A model generated the notes under the pieces. That model made no database searches. It worked only from the letters and a program-made list of their open reading frames with translations, and was not told where the DNA came from. From NCBI GenBank assembly GCA_964019055.1, contig OZ025207.1, positions 26,073,617 through 26,137,616 on the forward strand: DNA of 64,000 nt, written 5' to 3'. Shown piece by piece: positions 36,643 to 63,760 of the stretch (position 1 is its first letter; each line of letters opens with the position of its first letter). The stretch comes from Anthopleura xanthogrammica (Eukaryota > Cnidaria > Anthozoa > Actiniaria > Actiniidae). Made by a program: the position numbers and the translations under genes.

Positions 36643-38383
36643 TCACTGCTGTGGCCTTGGTACCTCCTCTACGAACAGACGGCTGGTAGATTGCCAACCC
36701 GTCATTGCGTCTCCTCTGCCGGTACTGGCACAGTTCCCGACATTAAACCCCACACGGACATGTCCCTTGTGGATCTTGTCACAGTGACCTTCAATATGGC
36801 GGACACGGTGGAGGTCCTGTGTTCCTACGCCTTTACGCATATACACGATACCGTCTATTGCACGAGGAGCCTTACATTCAGCACCGTTGAACGTGAAGAA
36901 CCATCGCTTACAACAAGTGTTGCAGTCATAAAGCCTTAAGTTGCCGTTCCAGAAAACACGAAGGAATGACTCGCTGTAGTTCTTGTGAAAAACACAATCC
37001 TGCAGAAAAGATAAATTGTATTCATACATCTTTCACGAATAACAAGTTATCTTAACTTTCAAACTATAGAATCGAGACTAACTCGAACCAGACTAAGATA
37101 GAACGATCGAAGTGTTGTCTCGTTATGATATAATTGTTAAATGTATAATTACCAGGGGCGGATCCAGAAATCTGAGAAAGGAGTGGAGAGGAACGGATCA
37201 GGGAGGAGGGAGAAAGGCAACGAGAAAAAAATAGGGAGAAGGGAGAGCCAGCACAAAATGGGAGAAGGGAGAAAATCATTATCATAAAATTCAATTATTA
37301 AATCATGAGTAATTTTGTCTTTTTTGCATCCGAAACCCGATCGTTTGTTGTGACTGTTAACTGTCTTATCTCCCCGGTCTCCCCGCAGTTGGTTTTAGTC
37401 AGTTGTCACGCAATGCGTTGCGCAACGAGACCTGATGAAATCACTTCCGGTCTATATACGCTATTCGATACCTCATTACTGTTTACGTATGACCTCTAAT
37501 ACATGTTCATATACACACGTTATTTATTTACAGTAACTCGAATTCCACTATCGTATTAATTCCACTATCGTAAAAAAGCTAAAATAGCGCGCTTGATTAG
37601 GGAAAAGTAGAAAAAATCAGGGAGGAGGAAGAAACGGCCAAAAAAATATGGAGGTGGGAGAAAAACGCCATTAAAAATAGGGAGGAAGGATATTTGAAAG
37701 CATGTTCCTCTCCCCTCAGAAAGGATGATGGAAAAATTCACCGCTAGCCTAAAATAAGCCATTGATTAGAGTTTTTCTACGAAATGTATTCAAATCACAC
37801 TTATTTCTATATGACTAAGTTTGATATGTGAACACACTGGTGACAATGTTCCTCTTACAGTATAGCTAGTTATATCTTGACCGACATATTCACTTTTTTC
37901 CATTCAACGCGGTTCACTTTTAAGCGAGTCTTCGAGACGTTTCAAAAAAAAACTATTCAAATTTTAACCTTGCAGCCTCGACTGAATACTTTGTCTGTGA
38001 CCAATGAACCGATGTATGGATAATAGCAAGTCTCATTAATATATTACTCAAAATGTTACCCCTAGTAAATTTAAAAGAAAAAAAGGTATTTTACCCTGAT
38101 CAGCCCGTTGTCTTTCCCATCGTTGAGGTTGTTCCACGAACATTCTTTCCAGTTCGAATAGGATGAAAGACCTCTCGCACCTGGCTCTCCCTTCTTTCCT
38201 TCAGCTCCCCGGGAACCGGCTACACCAGGAGCTCAGGGAGGTCCTTGCTTGCCTGGAGTCCCGTCAAACCCTTGAGGACCTTGTTTACCTTGAGCGCCTG
38301 ATCTACCATCTCGCCCGTCTCGTCCAGGAGCACCAGGGGTTCCATGTTGACCAGGAATGCCGGGAAGACCAGCCAAGGAACAA
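36643..38383 (-). pseudogene. CTHRC1-like gene (collagen triple helix repeat-containing), 5'-truncated with an in-frame stop
   Basis: Family members are secreted glycoproteins with a short collagen stretch and a cysteine-rich C-terminal domain; vertebrate CTHRC1 modulates Wnt and matrix signalling. Two exons are seen: 38383-38095 and 36999-36643. The first encodes Gly-X-Y repeats ([20 protein letters not shown]...) then SSYSNWKECSWNNLNDGKD. The second encodes the C-terminal domain: CVFHKNYSESFLRVFWNG, CNTCCKRWFFTFNGAEC, LHRVRHIEGHC, VRVGFNVGNC, SRLFVEEVPRPQQ and a stop. A TGA stands at 38235-38233 where a collagen glycine (GGA) is expected, so translation would end before the C-terminal domain. 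No signal-peptide exon is found; instead a copy of the TRPC4AP 3' flank begins at 38470. A sequencing error or a heterozygous nonsense allele remains possible. Compare the intact relative at 53797-60794. Confidence 0.72.
37890..38030. mobile_element. MITE, family with TTTCCATACAT ends, copy 3 (decayed)
   Basis: CTATTCAAATTTTAACCTTGCAGCCTCGACTGAATACTTTGTCTGTGACCAATGAACCGATGTATGG matches the right half of 13401-13548; the left half is only weakly recognisable (TTTTTCCATTCAACGCGGTTCAC). It sits in the intron of the CTHRC1-like pseudogene. Confidence 0.6.
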
Positions 38384-41005: not shown

Positions 41006-44000
41006 ATGACTACTGATAACAGTAATGAAAAGTCTGATCTTTTGATTCGTGCCATCATTCAAAGAAACGAGAACGAGACCCGTGCATTGATTGATGCTGG
41101 TGCTGATGTCAACATAACTGGTACTTATGGCGAAGCTGCTTTCTTTTATGCTGTCCGACAAAATAACAACGAGAGTGTGGTTCGTGCATTGATTGATGCT
41201 GGTGCTGATGTCAACAAAACTGATGGTATTGGCCAAACTGTTTTGTTTCATGCTGTCCAACAAAGTAACAACGAGAGTGTGGTTCGTGCATTGATTGATG
41301 CTGGTGCTGATGTCAACATAACTAATACTTATGGCATAACTGCTTTCTTTTATGCTGTCCGACAAAATAACAACGAGAGTGTGGTTCGTGCATTGATTGA
41401 TGCTGGTGCTGATGTCAACATAACTGATGGTAATGGCAAAACTGCTTTGTTTATTGCTGTCCGACAAAGTAACAACGAGAGTTTGGTTCGTGCATTGATT
41501 GATGCAGGTGCTGATGTCAACAAAGCTGATGGTATTGGCGAAACGGCTTTGTTTCATGCTGTCCGACAAAGTAACAACAAGAGTGTGGTTCGTGCATTGA
41601 TTGATGCTGGTGCTGATGTCAACATAACTAATACTTATGGCATAACTCCTTTGTTTCATGCTGTCCGAGAAAGTAACAACGGGAGTGTGGTTGGTGCATT
41701 GATTGATGCTGGTGCTGATGTCAACAAAACTGATGATATTGGCAAAACTGCTTTGTTTTATGCTGTCCGACAAAGTAACAACGAGAGTGTGGTTAGTGCA
41801 TTGATTGATGGTGGTGATGAATACGTAAATGTGCAAGATGTTTATGGGAGAACACCATTGTTTTATGCTCTCAACCATCCAAAGTCAGCTCGTATTCTTG
41901 TTGAAAAAGGAAGAAAATATCCGTTTCGTTTGAACGATAAGTGTCATTGCAGTATTTTAGACTTTTTTGTTGACAGATGTTTACTCAAATATATTAATGA
42001 AGATGATAGTGATAATGAAGATGACCATGATAATGAAGTGCATAGTAATAGTGGAGATGATAATGATAGTGAAGATGATAATGATACTGATGACTGTAGT
42101 GAAGACTCACTTTCACAAAACATTCCTCTTGGCTTTTTTGATTTTCTTGAAGAATGTAAGGTACAGAAAACAACATTTGCTGAAGCAATTTTGAATATAG
42201 CATTTTGTAAGTTCTCTCTTATGTTCCAAAAAAGACCATTTCTTACACGGGACATCACTAGAGCCTTAAAACTAGCTTGTCACTTTATTGACGATGAGGA
42301 AATGGAAAAGCTGATTGCGCTTATAAATGAAAAATGTGAAAATGGAGAAGGAGTATCAGAAGCTTTACAACTATTGGTTAAGTTAGGTGCCGATCCTAAT
42401 AGTGTTGATTCAGATGGTAATACAGCCCTTCACTATGCGACTGGTTTAGCATCGATGGAAGTACCTCAAGAGATTGTGATGGAGATTTGTCTTCAGCTGG
42501 AGAAACATGGTGTGCAATTTAACTTGAGAAACCATGAGAATCAAACACCCCTACTGTATTGTTTGTCTACACCTATAGGGGGGTTAGGAGAAGAAAATCA
42601 GTTGTCAGACGTAAAAACCTTGGTTGAAGTCTGCACATTTTTGTCCAAACACGGATCCAGCATTGAAGAACGGACTCGAAGTGGAGAAACTGTTTTTCAT
42701 TTAATGTTACAGCTTTTCCATCAAGGACTTGGTTTACGTGATAAGACAGTAAGACAAGATATTTTGCACGAATCATTAAAACTTTTGCAATTATTTTCAC
42801 CTGAAAAAGAAGGAAAAACAGGATATATTAACATACCTGATGCTCATCTCGACTCACCACTCCACCGCTGGGCAACACTAAGATTACCATCACCTCAAGA
42901 CTATACCAGTAATGTTACGAGAGATCTCACATTTGAGGAATTCCTACAAACAATCTTTAACTACCTTATAAAGTGTGGAGCAAAACTGAATTCCAGAAAT
43001 GAAGACGATAAAACTCCTTTACATTTGTGCAGTACCTGGATAGCTGTGAAGCTGTTGCTTGATGCTGGAGCAAAGACTAACGTTGTCGATTCATCAGAAG
43101 CATCACCTCTTATTGTTGCAGCCAATAGGAGAATTTTTGATGATCACAGTGGTCTTTACCAGGATGTTTCATTAGATGACCCAAAATCATTTTGGAAAAC
43201 TACCATCGACAAAGGACTTGATCCATGGACAGCTGACAAAAAGGGTGAGTCAGTTTTAAGTATTCTCATTAAAGGAGATGCTTACGTTCTTGCAAAAGCT
43301 CTGGTTGATGTTGCTTGTGAGGAGGGCTACACTCGATCCGAGACATTTGCTGTTGGTCTTTTGAATGCGATCTGCAAAGACAAGTCAACACGAACAAATT
43401 GGAAAACGAATGTTGTCCAAGGTATTTTAAAGTCAAGGAAATGTCAAACCACTGCATCAGAACCACTTCGTCTTTGCTGTAGGAATATAATAGAAACTGG
43501 CTTATTGGAAAACAAAGCAGACGAGAAGTCTCCCTATGCAGCTATTGAAATGTCAGTTAGTGAATATCACGAAACCTTTGATGAGGAACAACCTGAATCA
43601 AAGGAAAGAAGAAGGGACACATCACACAATTCAATAGAAAGAAAGTTTGAAAAATCATCTGTGCATTGTGAAATCATTAAGATCCTTCGCTTGTATGGAG
43701 CTGATGGCAGTGCTTGCCTGGACATGGCAGACACTTCTGATGCTCTTAAAGAACTCCTCACCAAAACCTTAGATTTTGACAAAGTGTCTGTACTCATTCC
43801 ATGGACTTCTATTTCAAAGAAATATGAAGTCAAATTGGCCAAAGTTGCTAGGCGACAAGAGTGCGATGTGATCCATGAGGAATTTTGGTGCCATAAAGAA
43901 CACGTAGGAAGTGGCTCATTTGGCCATGTCTTTGTTGGAATCAATGAAAAAGATGGTAGAGAAGTGGCCATCAAGCGCATTGAGAAATTACGTATGCCGC

Positions 44001-45094
44001 GACCAGAAGACAAACGAGAGATTTCAAATCTCACTGCTCTTGCAGACTGTGAACAAATAGTTCGTTATTTGTATTACTTTGAAGAGGAAAAGTTCTCATA
44101 CATTGTTTTAGAACTGATGGAAGGAAATCTAGACGAGTACCTTACTGATGGTTCCACATTTGAGGCCAAAAAAAGTATTCTACTTTGTGAAGATGTAGTT
44201 AAGGGGTTGAAGTTTCTTCATGCCCAGGATATCATTCATCGTGACCTAAAGCCTGGGAATATTCTCTATAAAACACATCCTCAACTACGTTTGAAAATTG
44301 CTGACTTTGGTCTCAGCCGTCGCATTGATAGTGTCTCAACTACAGTGCTTTGTACTAATGCCGGAACGAGGTGTTGGATGGCTGGAGAAGTGTTGATGGG
44401 TACTCGCGATCATTCCAAGGCATCCGACATGTTATCATGTGGACTTGTTGTTCATTACATTCTTTCGGTACAAAAACACCCCTTCTCTAAGAACAATAGT
44501 CAAGTGTCTCACCAAATAGAAACCAACATTGCAAATGGGAGACTGGAAGGATGGGATGACTCTCTTTCTCCAGAAGGAACTCACATGGTCAAGAACATGC
44601 TTCGGATTGATGAAAAAGATAGACCAACTGCAGGGAAAGCTCTTGATCATCCATTGTTCTGGTCGAACGAGAAAAAAAATGATTTTCTTATTGCTGTTGG
44701 AAATCAGTCAGAGTTTGGATGCCCACGTGCGAGAAGATCAACTGGGTTAACTCCTGTGGAAACCGACTTGGAGAAAAACTTTGGTACCATAGTCGTGCAT
44801 GGAAAGTGGAAAGAACCCAGGTATAAGGACATGCCTCTTATATACGCTGAAATGACTTCACCAAAGGGAAGGTCTTACGATACTCACTCTGTAGTAGAGT
44901 TAGTACGGTTTATACGAAATGCTTACGCACACGTCTCTGAAGCCACACGACCAACAACAATCAAGAAAATGTTACTGGAAGACTTCGTGTTTCTGGAATA
45001 TTTCCCTAATCTTGTGATGGAAGTGTACAAGGTTGTGACTGATCATGGATGGGATCGAACAGTAGAAGAAATCAAGTACGTGATGAACAAGTAA
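41006..45094 (+). CDS. RNase L-like protein: ankyrin repeats + protein kinase + KEN endoribonuclease domain
   Basis: Single-exon gene for 1362 residues. Order: eight ankyrin repeats of 34 residues (about 12-300, core RALIDAGADVN); Asp/Glu/Asn/Ser-rich acidic linker (about 331-373); second divergent ankyrin block (about 450-765, for example LLVKLGADPNSVDSDGNTAL and LIKCGAKLNSRNEDDKTPLH); kinase (about 962-1219); KEN domain (1220-1362). Kinase landmarks: glycine loop VGSGSFGHV (967-975), lysine 990 in VAIKRI, HRDLKPGN (1078-1085), DFG (1100-1102), and GTRCWMAGEV where most kinases have APE. The IRE1/RNase L hallmark HPLFW (1215-1219) opens the KEN domain. FIRNAYAH keeps R1304, N1305 and H1309, matching the spacing of the RNase L nuclease residues R667 and H672; FPNLVMEVYK follows. 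No signal peptide or membrane span, so it is probably cytosolic. By family, ligand-driven dimerisation would switch on RNA cleavage; the ligand here is unknown. Alternative name: ankyrin-IRE1-like kinase. Confidence 0.92.
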   Translation: MTTDNSNEKSDLLIRAIIQRNENETRALIDAGADVNITGTYGEAAFFYAVRQNNNESVVRALIDAGADVNKTDGIGQTVLFHAVQQSNNESVVRALIDAGADVNITNTYGITAFFYAVRQNNNESVVRALIDAGADVNITDGNGKTALFIAVRQSNNESLVRALIDAGADVNKADGIGETALFHAVRQSNNKSVVRALIDAGADVNITNTYGITPLFHAVRESNNGSVVGALIDAGADVNKTDDIGKTALFYAVRQSNNESVVSALIDGGDEYVNVQDVYGRTPLFYALNHPKSARILVEKGRKYPFRLNDKCHCSILDFFVDRCLLKYINEDDSDNEDDHDNEVHSNSGDDNDSEDDNDTDDCSEDSLSQNIPLGFFDFLEECKVQKTTFAEAILNIAFCKFSLMFQKRPFLTRDITRALKLACHFIDDEEMEKLIALINEKCENGEGVSEALQLLVKLGADPNSVDSDGNTALHYATGLASMEVPQEIVMEICLQLEKHGVQFNLRNHENQTPLLYCLSTPIGGLGEENQLSDVKTLVEVCTFLSKHGSSIEERTRSGETVFHLMLQLFHQGLGLRDKTVRQDILHESLKLLQLFSPEKEGKTGYINIPDAHLDSPLHRWATLRLPSPQDYTSNVTRDLTFEEFLQTIFNYLIKCGAKLNSRNEDDKTPLHLCSTWIAVKLLLDAGAKTNVVDSSEASPLIVAANRRIFDDHSGLYQDVSLDDPKSFWKTTIDKGLDPWTADKKGESVLSILIKGDAYVLAKALVDVACEEGYTRSETFAVGLLNAICKDKSTRTNWKTNVVQGILKSRKCQTTASEPLRLCCRNIIETGLLENKADEKSPYAAIEMSVSEYHETFDEEQPESKERRRDTSHNSIERKFEKSSVHCEIIKILRLYGADGSACLDMADTSDALKELLTKTLDFDKVSVLIPWTSISKKYEVKLAKVARRQECDVIHEEFWCHKEHVGSGSFGHVFVGINEKDGREVAIKRIEKLRMPRPEDKREISNLTALADCEQIVRYLYYFEEEKFSYIVLELMEGNLDEYLTDGSTFEAKKSILLCEDVVKGLKFLHAQDIIHRDLKPGNILYKTHPQLRLKIADFGLSRRIDSVSTTVLCTNAGTRCWMAGEVLMGTRDHSKASDMLSCGLVVHYILSVQKHPFSKNNSQVSHQIETNIANGRLEGWDDSLSPEGTHMVKNMLRIDEKDRPTAGKALDHPLFWSNEKKNDFLIAVGNQSEFGCPRARRSTGLTPVETDLEKNFGTIVVHGKWKEPRYKDMPLIYAEMTSPKGRSYDTHSVVELVRFIRNAYAHVSEATRPTTIKKMLLEDFVFLEYFPNLVMEVYKVVTDHGWDRTVEEIKYVMNK

Positions 45095-45139
45095 CAAGGT
45101 ACAGGTAAGATGTTTCAATTATATATTTAATTACGGTGA

Positions 45140-49475: not shown

Positions 49476-50370
49476 TCATGTTTGTGAACGGGAAGTAGGT
49501 ATGTGGGTTACCTGTGGTTAATGCCTGGGACACAGGGAACCCAAAATAAGTTACGTCATTCGATACGGTATATAGATTATATTTTTTAAAGAATTTTTCT
49601 ACTTTAAAGAATTTCTAGCTTAAAATTATGGTTATTGGACACTGGGGATAAATTATAGAAGCTATTCTTAAAGCTATTTTTAACCGTCTTGGGCCAAACT
49701 CGACCGAGAAATACGTCACAGCTACAAAGCTTTATAGTTTTCACCACTGAAAGACTACCAACGTCCGCTATCGTTCATTTTAAAGTAATAAGAAACGTAA
49801 ACAGGGATACTGTTGGCTTCAAACTCAAGAGAATAACCATCCTCAAGGCCCGTGCCACATTAATTCATGGTGGTATTACCGTCCGCTCGTCAGTTGTCAC
49901 GCAATGCGTTGCGCAACGAGACCTGATGATATCACTTCCGGTCCATATACGCTATTCGATACCTCATTACTGTTTACGTATGACCTCTAATACATGTTCG
50001 TATACACACGTTATTTATTAACAGTAACTCGAATTCCACTATCGTATTACGTAAAAAAAAGCTAAAATAGCGCGCTTGATTAGGGAAAAATAGAAAAAAA
50101 CAGGGAGGAGGGAGAAACGGCCAAAAAAATATGGAGGTGGGAGAAAAACGCCATTAAAAATAGGGAGGAAGGATATTTGAAAGCGTGTTCCTCTCCCCTC
50201 AGAAAGGGGGATGGAAACATTCACCGCTAGCCTAAAATAAGCCATTGATTAGAGTTTTTCTACGTAATTTATTCAAATCACACTTATTTCTATATGACTA
50301 AGTTTGATATGTGAACATACTGGTGACAATGTTCCTCTTACAGTTATATCTTGACCGACATATTCACTAT

Positions 50371-51963
50371 TCTGCACACATTGCTACAGTCAACAATATT
50401 AACACTATTTCTACAGTGTCTTCATTTCCACCGCCTACCGAAGTTCATCATGATGTGGAACCTTTCACCTTCACTCCTGTCACCTGCACCGAAGTTCAGC
50501 GAATCATTCTATCGATGCCGTCAAACAAGTCTCCAGGCCCTGACAAAATAAGTATGCGCGTCATCAAAGACTGCCTTCCAGTGATCCTGGGTCCACTGAC
50601 AGACATTATCAATTGCTCATTCATCACTTCTACATTCCCAGATGCATGGAAAATAGCCGAGGTCATACCACTGTTGAAAGAAGGAGATCATGAAGAGGCA
50701 TCGAACAACCGTCCTCTCTCTCTTCTCGTTGCTGCCTCAAAGATCTGTGAACGGATAGCACTCCATCAGTTTAGCTCGTATCTGCACCGTAATGGCCGTC
50801 TTAACTCTCATCAAAGTGGAAATAGGAAACATCATTCTACTGAAACCCTAAACATCTTAGTAAATGACTCTTTATTGGATGCAATGGATAATAAGAAACT
50901 GTCTGCACTTATACTATTAGATCTTTCAAAGGCTTTTGACAGTATAAGCCATTCAATCCTGCTTCAAAAGTTAAGCTGTATTGGTGCCTCTTGTGATGCT
51001 GTTAATTGGTTCAAAAGCTACCTAACTGAAAGAAAGCAGATGGTCCGTATCGGCTCATTGGTATCTACACCTCTTCCCATCACTCATGGTGTGCCACAGG
51101 GAGCAATTTTATCACCGCTCCAATTCAGCATATATATATAAACAATCTTCCATCAGTACCGAAAGTATGCAACATTGGGTCCTATGTCGACGACTCAAAG
51201 GTTCTTTTATCTTTTCCGATAAAAGATGTAGTAACTGCCAAACACAAGCTTGAGGAAGATCTTCAGCATGTGGCGGCTTGGTGTTGCAAAAATCAGGTAC
51301 TAATCAATGCAAAGAAGACCAAGTTCCTTCTGGTTGGTACGCGTCAGCTGTTACTTAGACTCCCCGAGGAAATGTGTCTGTCTTTCTTAGGAGAAGAAAT
51401 TACAGCTGTTTCAAGCGCAAAAGACCTTGGGATAATATTGGACAGCAATTTGACATATGACAATCATATAAAGGGAAGCACGGGTGGTGTAGCGGTGAGA
51501 GCGCTTCCCTCTCACCAAGGCGACCCGAGTTCGAGCCCCGCTGGGCTCGGTGTCGTATGTGAGCAGAGTTGTTTGTTGGTTCTCTCCTGTGCTTCGAGGG
51601 TTTTTTCGGGTTCTCCGGTTTTTCCTCCCTCCTCAAAAATCAACTTCTAAATTCCAATTGGAATTCAGGGCCACCTGAAAATTATCAGCCTGGTAACGGT
51701 GTACCCTGTCCAATAAAGTCGTTTTTTTTAAATGAACTGACATCTTCATGCATGTCCAAACTTTGTCAGATAAACAGGGTCAAAGACAGCTTTGATAAAG
51801 ACACACTACATTTAATAATTTCCGCTTTAGTACTAAGTAAGTTGTACTACTGTTCGTCAGTTTGGTCCAACACTTCAATTACTAACATTAAGAAACTTCA
51901 AGGTGTACAGAATTTTGCTGGTAGAATAATTACAAATACTAGAAAATATGAGGAAATTTGAAC
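50371..51963 (+). pseudogene. Non-LTR retrotransposon reverse transcriptase (CR1/L2/Jockey-like), broken
   Basis: Reverse transcriptase blocks in order: SMPSNKSPGPDKIS, WKIAEVIPLLKEGD, NRPLSLLVAASKICERI, LILLDLSKAFDSISH, THGVPQGAILSP, then, in another frame, SYVDDSKVL (the catalytic FADD/YADD-type box as YVDD) and TKFLLVGT..DLGIILDSNLTY. The 5' part, including the endonuclease and any ORF1, is absent. A 2-bp slip in a TA run at about 51129-51141 causes the frame break, and a SINE (51476-51730) splits the C-terminal part, which resumes ELTSSCMSKLCQINRVKDSF to 51961. It abuts duplication copy B exactly, so it may mark a breakpoint. Confidence 0.88.
51476..51730 (+). repeat. Complete tRNA-derived SINE inserted in the reverse transcriptase
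   Basis: Reference copy of the window's main SINE: A box GTGGTGTAGCGGTGAGAGCG, B box GAGTTCGAGCCCC, body GTTTGTTGGTTCTCTCCTGT and TTCGGGTTCTCCGGTTTTTC, tail with GTACCCTGTCCAATAAAGTC and a T run. It interrupts the retrotransposon frame at ..DNHI, which resumes right after it, with a short (A)TAAA-like target repeat. Confidence 0.88.
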
Positions 51964-53796: not shown

Positions 53797-56700
53797 TCAC
53801 GACTGTGGCCTGGGTACTTCCTCTACGAACAGACGGCTGACAGTCTTCCAACCCGTGTATGCATTAGCATTGCCATACCCGGAACAGTCACCGACATTGA
53901 AGCCCACACGAACTTGTCCTTTGTGGACGTTGTTACAGTGACCTTCAATATGGCGGACACGGTGAAGCCAAAATGTACCATAACTTAAGTAGGCAAGACC
54001 ATCAATCGGGCGAGGGGCCTGGCATTCAGCACCGTTGAACGTGAAGAACCAGCGCTTACAGCAACCACTACATTGATTAACACTAAATTCGCCATTCCAG
54101 TAAACGTGAAGGGCAGAATTGCTGTGTTTCTTTATGAAAACACAATCCTGTTCAAAATAAGAAAAAAATATGCAGTTACTATGAGTAAATAACATCAGAC
54201 TGAGCAATGGACTACTTCGACGATACGGCGGCCATTTTGGTAGAGGGGAAATATACAAATCTTTGTTACACTTGTGGCGTCGATTAAAATGAACGTTTCA
54301 CCCCTAGACAACTTGACAAGAGATGAATTAAGAATATGGACACGAAAGAAAGACAAATAAACGAAACTCTCTATTTTGTCCGACATTTTTGTTTTCTTTT
54401 GCCCCCTGGACGTCCCATAATGCCTTGCGATTCAAGATGTGAAAATAATGATTGATGCTACGTAGAAAAATGAAATGCTTGTCTCTTAACCAGCATGATA
54501 GGGCTAGAGAAACCCAGGATTTGTTTTTTTCTTCATCAGATCCTACGTTTACCCCCGGCATCTCTTACACGGTTCTTTTCATAAATTCAGATTCAAGATG
54601 GCCGCCGCATCGTCGAAGAAGTCCATTAAGGACAGCGAGGATTTTGGTACTGTTGAGAAATCATAAGTTATTAATATGAACCCATTTTTTTTCACAAAAT
54701 AATACACAATTACAGTGCGGACACTCGAACCATGAACACCTCAAGGTTTTTTTGACATTTTTCATAACTATCCAATCAGCACTCTTGATAGAAAAAGGGA
54801 TCAAACATTTTTTAAGGCCTAATCCAATCACAACAAACAGCATAATTTATGTGATTTAGCAGTTCATAAGTTCACATGTACAAAAAATATTATTCATCGT
54901 GGAAATGTAATAGACCCCTTGCAGCACGTCGGAATGCAGCTCAATTTGGAGGACAAAACAATAAGTTCCAATTCTTAGGAGATTGAAATTTTTTTTTTTG
55001 ACCTCCAAAATGAGTTGCTTTGACGTCACGTGAAAGAGGTCTATAAAGAAATACTACGCATTCGTTTGTCTCGCAATTGATATCATTCATTCTTATCGTA
55101 GTATTATGTATATTAGACCTTTCTGCTTTACCACTACTTTCGACTTCGTGCACTCTAAAAACAATAGATGAGATCAAAGATTGTACGAAATTTGAACATC
55201 TTTAGAATTTGGACAATTAAGATGCTTGTATTTTTAAGGTATCAGGGTACCCCTAGCGACCGGTGTTCATTTAACTCAATATAACGCTAAACCATTTCAG
55301 CAAACCCCCAATAAAGTATACATTTTCTGAAAGCTGAATAAACGTAGAAGCTGTTCACTTCTTTAATTTTGTAAAATAAATTTATCCTTTTGAGTTAGAG
55401 CGAATTATCCAAATTTTCACATGGGTCTCTTCGCGGAGTTCGATGACAGCCGGTATTGATCTGAAACCAATGCTTATTATCTTTCTGAGATCCCGAGATA
55501 TCGCTTGTCAAAAGTATGTCTCCGATTTTTGATTGATTGCCCCGTTGCGTTTTTATACGCGCCTAAAATTGTAACACTGCTAAATTAGGTGTATCCGATA
55601 TAAAATCTACAATAACTTTTTAAAAAAACAAGATATCAAAAATCGGAGACACACTTTTGAAGAAAAACTATCTGACATAACTTTCGCAAAATTTCAGGTA
55701 AATCGGTCAAATTCCCTTTGACAACGAACTAAAAACGTAAGGGTAACTAAACGCAAATTCACTTTCGAGAAAAACGCAAAATTGTTTTTGAAGCTCAGAA
55801 GTGCCTTTGTTGACACAAGGGGATTAAGATACCACAAGATCTTGCCCGATGACAGATGAAGTAACGAGAAACCAAGATCGTATTACTTTATTATTGTTGT
55901 TTTGAGCGGAAAGTTCCGGCAAATTCTTAGTTGTTTAGTAATAATTTTTGAGGAATTAATCGATATTATCCAAGTTAGACGTTTTGATTTGCTAATGGTC
56001 TTGTTTTCATACGCCTAAGTATGGAGAAAAGCGAGGAAGCGACAAGAAAACAAAACCCATGTCTACAAGCGCCTTAAATCAAAATACAATGTTTTATAGA
56101 GACGTGACAACAAATCGTTGACAAGTGATGTCAGCAACAAATTGAAGATTATTAAAGCAAAAAAATCGTTTTTCGTTTATTACTCGTTATTAAAAATCCC
56201 CATTGGAAATATATTTTTGGAAAATAATAGCTTATTGTGTATTCTCTTGAAAAATGTAAAAACCTAAAAATTGACCTTTTGGAGCAGTTTTGGGGTACCC
56301 TGATACCTTAATTGTTTATGTACAATAGTTAAAGTCAAGTCATGCTTTTAATATATACGTCGTAAGTATTGTGCATTGATATGGCCCGACTCGTTGTTTA
56401 TTACAACAACGAGATATAAGCATCTTTTGTTCAAATTCTATAGATGTTCAAATATTGTACAATCTTTGATTTCACCTATTGCTTCTTTAGTGCACGAAGT
56501 CGAAAATAGTGCCGGATAAAGCAAAAAGGTCTAATGCAAAAAATACCCATTGTATTGTGCTGAACTTTGAATATTTTGACCCAACTGCTAGGTAGGGTCA
56601 CTCCCTTGATATATATTATTTATACAATGGTTTCGAGTGGCATACTGTGGAATATCCCACTCGTCACTTGTAGTTTCTAGTATACACACGAGCCTTTAGG

Positions 56701-62711: not shown

Positions 62712-63409
62712 TACATAATAGGAAATAAACGCTCCACGAAATTAAAGTATTAGAAATAAGCACGACTTAAATTAACGCGAATTGAGAGCAAAAATACTTT
62801 CAAATGAAGAAAATTAAGGCGAAAGAGAAGCCAAAATTCCCATTTAAATGAAATTAACGCGATGGACACAAAGATAACTCATCTGAAAGTGAAAATGAAG
62901 AGCTTGTAGAATGAAAAACGAAAATATAATTTCCGGCAAAAAGTGAGATGTTGTTGTTATTAAGCGACTAGCTGTAATGTTAAGTTTAAAAATAAATATT
63001 TTTTCAAAAGTTTATAGAGATAAAATTACTAGAAATTGATATCGTGAAAATTAACGTTCCCCTTTATTAATGATATGGAAATTAACATTAAAAGAAATTA
63101 ACACGACTTGAATTAACGCTTGATATCATCTCACTCATAAACGAGAACGGTGACCCCCATTTTTTATTTGCTCAGGCTAGTGAACTTTTATGATGGTCTT
63201 ATTTCACCATGCGAAGTTTGAAGAAAAAAAAAAATAAGAATCAACTTTGCCCGCGAAAACATGGTGAAATACACGCATGCGTAAACGTTTATTACTGGTG
63301 TCCACGTCATCTTAGTTATGTTTGCTCTGCTGTGGACGCCACTATGAAGTATTAATCTAGGTTTGAGTCGCTCTTTTCCCAGTAGGTTAAAAAAACTAGG
63401 ATTTCGACG

Positions 63410-63760
63410 ATGGCATCTTCTTTAGTAAGTCTCAAGAAGGACGTCCAGTGTCCTTTGTGTAATGATACACTTATCGAACCCAAGATCCTGACGTGTTTTC
63501 ATACATTTTGTAAGCCTTGCATCAAAAGACATGCCGAGCTGATCGAGGAAGTCAACGTGTTCAAGTGTCCTCAGTGTAAATCTCTAACTCCTCTGCCAGA
63601 TCTAAACAGCGTCGAAGATCTAAAGCCAAGTCTTCTACATTCAAGAATTTTAAAAATTCTAGACTTTATTGAAGAAGAGAAGATTTGTTCTGTTTGTACG
63701 AGTCATTCGACAGCGACTCAACAATGTTTTGACTGTGATCGCTCGTTGTGTGACGAATAA
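63410..63760 (+). pseudogene. TRIM-like RING finger protein, stops inside the B-box
   Basis: ATG in good context (gacgATGG). The 116-residue frame has a RING finger: CPLCNDTLIEPKILTCFHTF, CKPCIKRH and CPQC give the C3HC4 ligands. Then CSVCTSHSTATQQC and CDRSLCDE start a B-box of the type found after the RING in TRIM proteins, which act as ubiquitin ligases in immunity and cell regulation. A TAA falls where B-box ligands (Cys/His) should follow, and no coiled coil or NHL/SPRY part is seen in the remaining 240 bp. The sequence after the stop does not continue a B-box in any frame, which suggests an insertion or deletion. A RING-only product is possible; the missing part could also lie beyond the window. 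Confidence 0.65.

Follow-up and report, generated by a model that had tools for sequence, protein, structure and literature searches.

An ankyrin-kinase-KEN gene of a sea anemone and its probable kinship with RNase L

The 64,000-nucleotide stretch analyzed here (the window), from contig OZ025207.1 of the sea anemone Anthopleura xanthogrammica, carries a gene whose predicted product joins ankyrin repeats, a protein kinase domain and a KEN (Ribonuc_2-5A) domain in this order. Its frame, 41006-45094(+), runs from ATG to TAA over 1362 residues with no internal stop. An earlier note made from the letters alone had proposed this domain order in one uninterrupted frame and a KEN match near residues 1220-1362, and both are borne out by the open reading frame (ORF), by Pfam and by named motifs. 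Ank_2 matches in six stretches (E-value 1.2e-65), Pkinase at residues 964-1218 (6.6e-57) and Ribonuc_2-5A/KEN at residues 1226-1349 (2.3e-11; 44.3 bits, above the cut-off of 23.3), and HRDLKPGN, ADFG, HPLFW and FIRNAYAH are all present; the KEN catalytic pair, numbered from the stop codon, is R1304/H1309. Since no 19-residue window of the protein has a hydropathy above 1.45, no membrane span is evident. The parts of the gene are the following:

41006..45094, + strand: complete frame of the ankyrin-kinase-KEN protein, 1362 residues, by ORF and Pfam; the end includes the stop codon
41120..41833, + strand: seven tandem ankyrin units of 34 residues each (residues 39-276), near-identical, with diversified finger positions
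41995..42091, + strand: low-complexity linker rich in Asp/Glu/Asn (about residues 331-362), by tandem repeat and low pLDDT (model confidence)
42263..43705, + strand: second, diverged ankyrin-type helical region (about residues 420-900), conserved in the family, by helix pairs in the predicted model and by conservation
43895..44659, + strand: protein kinase domain (residues 964-1218) with K990/D1080/D1100, and T1113 in the column of IRE1 S726
44681..45052, + strand: KEN (Ribonuc_2-5A) domain (residues 1226-1349) with R1304 and H1309
45092..45094, + strand: stop codon; the Actinia relative P0003 ends at the aligned residue

Two elements go beyond the earlier note: the second ankyrin-type region at about residues 420-900, and the origin of the N-terminal array in a 102-nucleotide tandem repeat. 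In the predicted model, which takes in the diverged inner region, the alignment to RNase L begins at model residue 103-177 (residues 392-466 of the window protein). The array, seven 34-residue units at residues 39-276, is a small sample from one gene, and its statistics are to be read as such. Nonsynonymous divergence between unit copies (pN) is 0.133 vs a synonymous one (pS) of 0.024, once the end of the last unit, which is out of register, has been left out. Compared with the majority codon, 27 variants are nonsynonymous and 2 are synonymous, with a P of 0.009 under random single-base change that is only approximate because the units share ancestry. At positions 2, 3, 5, 13, 14 and 33, which we take to be the ankyrin ligand-contact positions randomized in designed ankyrin repeat proteins (DARPins), pN reaches 0.34 vs 0.087 elsewhere; positions 1, 10 and 34, outside the DARPin set, vary too. 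In related proteins, compared at the level of protein and not of codons, 16 arrays were available, from 13 of 120. The 14 that have 33-residue units are most variable at 3, 13, 2 and 32, then 5 and 22, and the two that have 34-residue units at 2, 3 and 14. As far as it can be read from sequence, this pattern is what would be left by repeated duplication together with selection for changed binding.

The gene belongs to a family. Residues 940-1362, used as a protein query, gave 901 matches, of which the best 120 were listed, and the statements on family members below refer to these 120. Counted by eye, 117 carry an ankyrin accession and 114 a KEN accession. An organism is given for 23: 10 are from Actinia tenebrosa, 4 from Exaiptasia, 4 from Actinostola, 2 from Dendronephthya and 3 from the fish Sparus aurata, the last being products of one gene, and the remaining named rows are all Anthozoa. 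The closest named relatives among the matches listed are sea anemones, in accord with the cnidarian origin suggested earlier. The closest of these, Actinia P0003, has an identity of 82% across residues 940-1362 (kinase 84%, KEN 78%) and of 70-84% from residue 421 on, falls to 58% with gaps in the linker at 291-420, and has fewer N-terminal ankyrin units. Dendronephthya P0012, from a soft coral, is collinear with 50% identity over 899 residues, and because of it the family is judged from sequence to be old within Anthozoa; it is many-copied in at least Actinia, and ten listed rows appear to share one 656,158-nucleotide contig, which hints at a gene cluster. The window protein is a member of this family by its architecture, its conserved inner ankyrin-type region and its grouping in trees. 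Where named, the members are mostly labeled 'uncharacterized'. The protein is thus not the rarity for which the earlier note took it; a large family already stands in the databases, and PMC8476169 names, in passing, an RNase L homolog in Nematostella.

The residues needed for both catalytic activities are kept widely among the listed proteins. They were counted in 129 kinase-KEN modules, the window's own and 128 from the 120 listed matches. The kinase K/D/D are all retained in 120 of the 129, and the KEN R and H in 124 of the 127 modules with letters at both positions. The column that corresponds to human IRE1 S726 (we take the human sites to be S724/S726/S729 and number the column accordingly) is occupied by serine or threonine in 124 of the 129. 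Because the kinase K/D/D, the activation loop and the KEN pair are intact, the window protein should, as far as residues tell, work like IRE1, with a kinase able to phosphorylate its own loop and a KEN domain able to cut RNA.

The descent of the kinase-KEN part was examined in two trees. In the first, with 52 rows and IRE1 from human and yeast only, these two IRE1 split from all other rows with support of 100/99. The second, with 77 rows, dropped 12 family, 6 RNase L and 2 fish modules and gained 37 IRE1 and 8 short family rows, the added rows being chosen from the listed matches and not all of them; its IRE1 rows include fungi, nematodes and vertebrates, and are called animal or fungal by record name where given and otherwise by tree position. 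Here a branch supported at 100/99 sets off mammalian RNase L, together with the fish modules and anthozoan family, from the other rows, so that the family of the window protein groups with RNase L and not with IRE1, and when the tree is rooted on yeasts this group is the sister of animal IRE1 (95/96). The grouping holds after each group is dropped, for the kinase and KEN separately (99 and 96), and when only the slowest 70, 50 or 35% of columns are used (99, 99 and 97). At 50 and 35% the group no longer stands as sister of animal IRE1, and the duplication could therefore be older than animals. When a single non-IRE1 group is retained, the family and the fish modules each fall beside animal IRE1 (78 and 79). 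In approximately unbiased (AU) tests, whose groups were defined after the first tree had been viewed, three arrangements are rejected. One holds RNase L with vertebrate IRE1 (p 0.0014); the other two, each at p 0.0064, join to animal IRE1 either RNase L plus fish, leaving the family out, or the family by itself, leaving RNase L and fish out. Alternative branching orders among RNase L, fish and family are not distinguished (p 0.37 and 0.27). In 23 columns both RNase L and the family leave a residue shared by IRE1, and in 8 of these they have the same residue, where 1.4 are expected by a shuffle that takes no account of site preferences; two or three of these residues are common in other kinases. 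A profile search for short invertebrate forms of RNase L gave species-named rows that are all mammals (best 120 of 329).

Taken together, these data favor, with a probability of about 0.62, a cytosolic IRE1-type kinase-KEN endoribonuclease with an ankyrin input, from an anthozoan family that would share an ancestor with RNase L to the exclusion of IRE1, and working as a latent, ligand-gated RNase. The ankyrin region, made up of a rapidly varying N-terminal array and an inner part that is conserved, would keep the protein latent and bind a ligand, and ligand binding would bring copies together. The intact kinase would then trans-phosphorylate the activation loop around T1113 and the kinases would pair back to back, as IRE1 kinases do, so that a KEN dimer (R1304/H1309) could cut single-stranded RNA in answer to stress or viruses. 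This reading has its observed basis in the frame and its domains, the catalytic residues and predicted fold, the family and its grouping in trees, and the surplus of amino-acid changes in the array, whereas latency, oligomerization, phosphorylation, RNA cleavage and an immune role are extrapolated from IRE1 and RNase L biology. A wider proposal is tentative: ankyrin-kinase-KEN nucleases may predate the cnidarian-bilaterian split, with an expansion of cytosolic sensors in Anthozoa (tandem ankyrin arrays homogenized in the backbone and diversified at ligand-contact positions) and with RNase L as a reduced, single-ligand pseudokinase survivor.

Several observations weigh against the favored reading. 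The branches are long (RNase L 2.1, fish 1.05, family 1.2), making long-branch attraction a possible cause of the grouping, and the tree holds no row known as a cnidarian IRE1; for these two reasons the likelihood that the family and RNase L share an origin that excludes IRE1 is put at about three in four. RNase L as the sole non-IRE1 group does not sit with animals, RNase L with animal IRE1 without fish and family is not rejected by the AU test (p 0.076), and in pairwise scores IRE1 is the nearest match of the kinase-KEN, RNase L not being among the best 60 PDB matches. In addition, 97 of the 120 listed rows are assigned by sequence and tree position and not by record, and the window kinase has AGE in place of APE, the middle P of which is kept in 116 of 129 modules. 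Much of this would suit a convergence in which ankyrins were joined twice, in anthozoans and in vertebrates, to an IRE1-type kinase-KEN, leaving a likeness in architecture only; ankyrin repeats are promiscuous, and predicted structure also places the kinase-KEN nearest to IRE1. We nevertheless consider convergence unlikely, given that RNase L, fish and family cluster at 95-100 in the data cuts with two or three groups, that RNase L with vertebrate IRE1 is rejected, that 8 of the 23 departures from IRE1 are shared, and that the fish isoform P0090 also has N-terminal ankyrins. The earlier note had argued that the architecture is either older than vertebrates or arose twice; that dichotomy is supported, and the trees favor 'older'.

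Other alternatives concern function and the integrity of the gene. A role chiefly in kinase or scaffold signaling, with KEN as a dimerization relic, would fit the intact kinase motifs and the 6 listed matches without PF06479 (again by eye; some may be cut gene models), but is distinctly improbable with the KEN R and H so widely kept. A true 2′,5′-oligoadenylate (2-5A) receptor, targeted by the product of a cnidarian OAS exactly as in vertebrates, would be suggested by OAS reported in Nematostella and two corals (PMC6307210; for Nematostella also PMC13319465) and by OAS1 and RNase L homologs named together in the Nematostella poly(I:C) response (PMC8476169), all three sources being consulted in part. 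The 2-5A pocket of RNase L is built on ankyrin repeats R2 and R4 with W60 and F126, and an aromatic of this type is found in none of the nine recognizable ankyrin motifs of the window protein, its diverged inner repeats not being in register. In the family, 48 of 1201 motifs have one (117 proteins, the 120 listed less three fish rows), and only 3 of the 117 proteins have a pair two repeats apart. With an N-terminal array that is near-homogeneous and variable in unit number besides, such a receptor is very unlikely; 2-5A may still be sensed through a different pocket in the inner ankyrin region. An assembly chimera or pseudogene was considered in view of the repetitive surroundings and the direct repeats of about 1 kb that flank the gene, and was rejected as scarcely credible: the frame is open over 1362 residues, relatives in the Actinia and Dendronephthya records are collinear, and the catalytic residues are conserved. 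The frame is likewise no chance product, because it aligns with Actinia P0003 (70-84% identity from residue 421 on, with the same end) and with Dendronephthya P0012 (50%).

Around the frame, an acceptor-like TTACAG precedes the ATG and a donor-like CAG/GTAAGA lies ten bases past the stop (45095-45110), so that introns in the untranslated regions are possible. Direct repeats at 38528-39863/47017-48028 and 35078-37861/48783-50344, about 77-98% alike, stand in the order A-B-gene-B-A and could represent mobile elements or the remains of a segmental duplication. Two frames for the CTHRC1 C-terminal domain flank the gene (36643-37032(-), E-value 2.5e-45; 53797-54297(-), 1.8e-45), 74-80% alike over two ungapped stretches. 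Further features are a broken reverse transcriptase of the long interspersed element (LINE) type at 50308-51650(+), with RVT_1 E-values of 9.4e-17 and 3.5e-4 in two overlapping frames, and a RING finger at 63386-63760(+) (zf-C3HC4, 5.2e-9), perhaps part of a TRIM-like protein. A tblastn search of the window, with residues 290-1362 and with a part of P0012 as queries, found no second copy of the family, and Rfam at gathering scores and tRNA scans gave no matches there.

In the literature, cited here from parts of each paper, one survey scores OAS as present, but RNase L as missing, in Nematostella, Acropora digitifera, Orbicella and further early animals, and infers that their OAS has no counterpart of what follows it in the vertebrate pathway (PMC6307210); both OAS1 and RNase L are reported absent in Aplysia (PMC9334734). 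Homologs of RNase L and OAS1 are named for the response of Nematostella to poly(I:C), the basis of the label, KEN or ankyrin, not being visible in that part (PMC8476169); a paper that places OAS1 in immune cells of Nematostella speaks of RNase L a single time in the part consulted, as a gene of vertebrates (PMC13319465). KEN fused to a kinase plus ankyrin repeats was noted in some eukaryotes, with KEN expansions in Oikopleura and monocots, and cnidarian KEN is not mentioned in the parts of that paper examined (PMC3710099). Passages of PMC11797021, PMC6085071, PMC11672174 and PMC8204762 contributed nothing further. No dedicated study of the anthozoan family appeared among the papers listed in searches of open-licence full texts, bioRxiv preprints and the bulk of subscription papers being outside this scope. 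A large RNase L-related family in Anthozoa reopens the question of what OAS products do there, and Nematostella, being genetically tractable, makes it testable. The ankyrin-kinase-KEN design would date to before vertebrates, and the data suggest that this kind of enzyme is indeed older than they are. If the array is truly under diversifying selection, it may be an invertebrate example in which quickly changing recognition is joined to an RNase effector, and the wider proposal, if true, would describe a receptor family with changeable recognition wired directly to RNA destruction.

Among known proteins, Exaiptasia P0002 is of the same family but has two tandem kinase-KEN modules instead of one; its annotation reads 'Ankyrin repeat domain-containing protein 50'. 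Sparus aurata LOC115590285 (P0013/P0090) shares the kinase-KEN modules and, in the isoform P0090, N-terminal ankyrins; it differs in having three or four modules in a row, which group with RNase L and the anthozoan family in trees. RNase L (PDB 4oau, 4o1o) and the window protein have in common N-terminal ankyrins, a kinase fold and a C-terminal KEN with R-x4-H. Mammalian RNase L is a pseudokinase with HQD, DFD and most of the activation loop absent, whereas the window protein has intact K990, D1080 and D1100 and keeps the loop; RNase L has about 740 residues and nine repeats, the window protein 1362 residues, a near-homogeneous array and a second ankyrin-type region. Of the likeness to RNase L drawn in the earlier note, the architecture and the tree grouping stand, but by its sequence the protein is not RNase L itself, because it has active-kinase motifs, keeps the activation loop and shows no 2-5A aromatics in its recognizable motifs. 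IRE1/ERN1 (PDB 2rio, 3fbv, 5hgi) shares with it the active-kinase motifs, the S/T column of the activation loop, the HPxFW junction and the KEN catalytic pair, and is the best structural match to its predicted fold. IRE1 has a luminal sensor and a membrane span, whereas the window protein has ankyrins and no hydrophobic segment, and at eight columns it is like RNase L and unlike IRE1.
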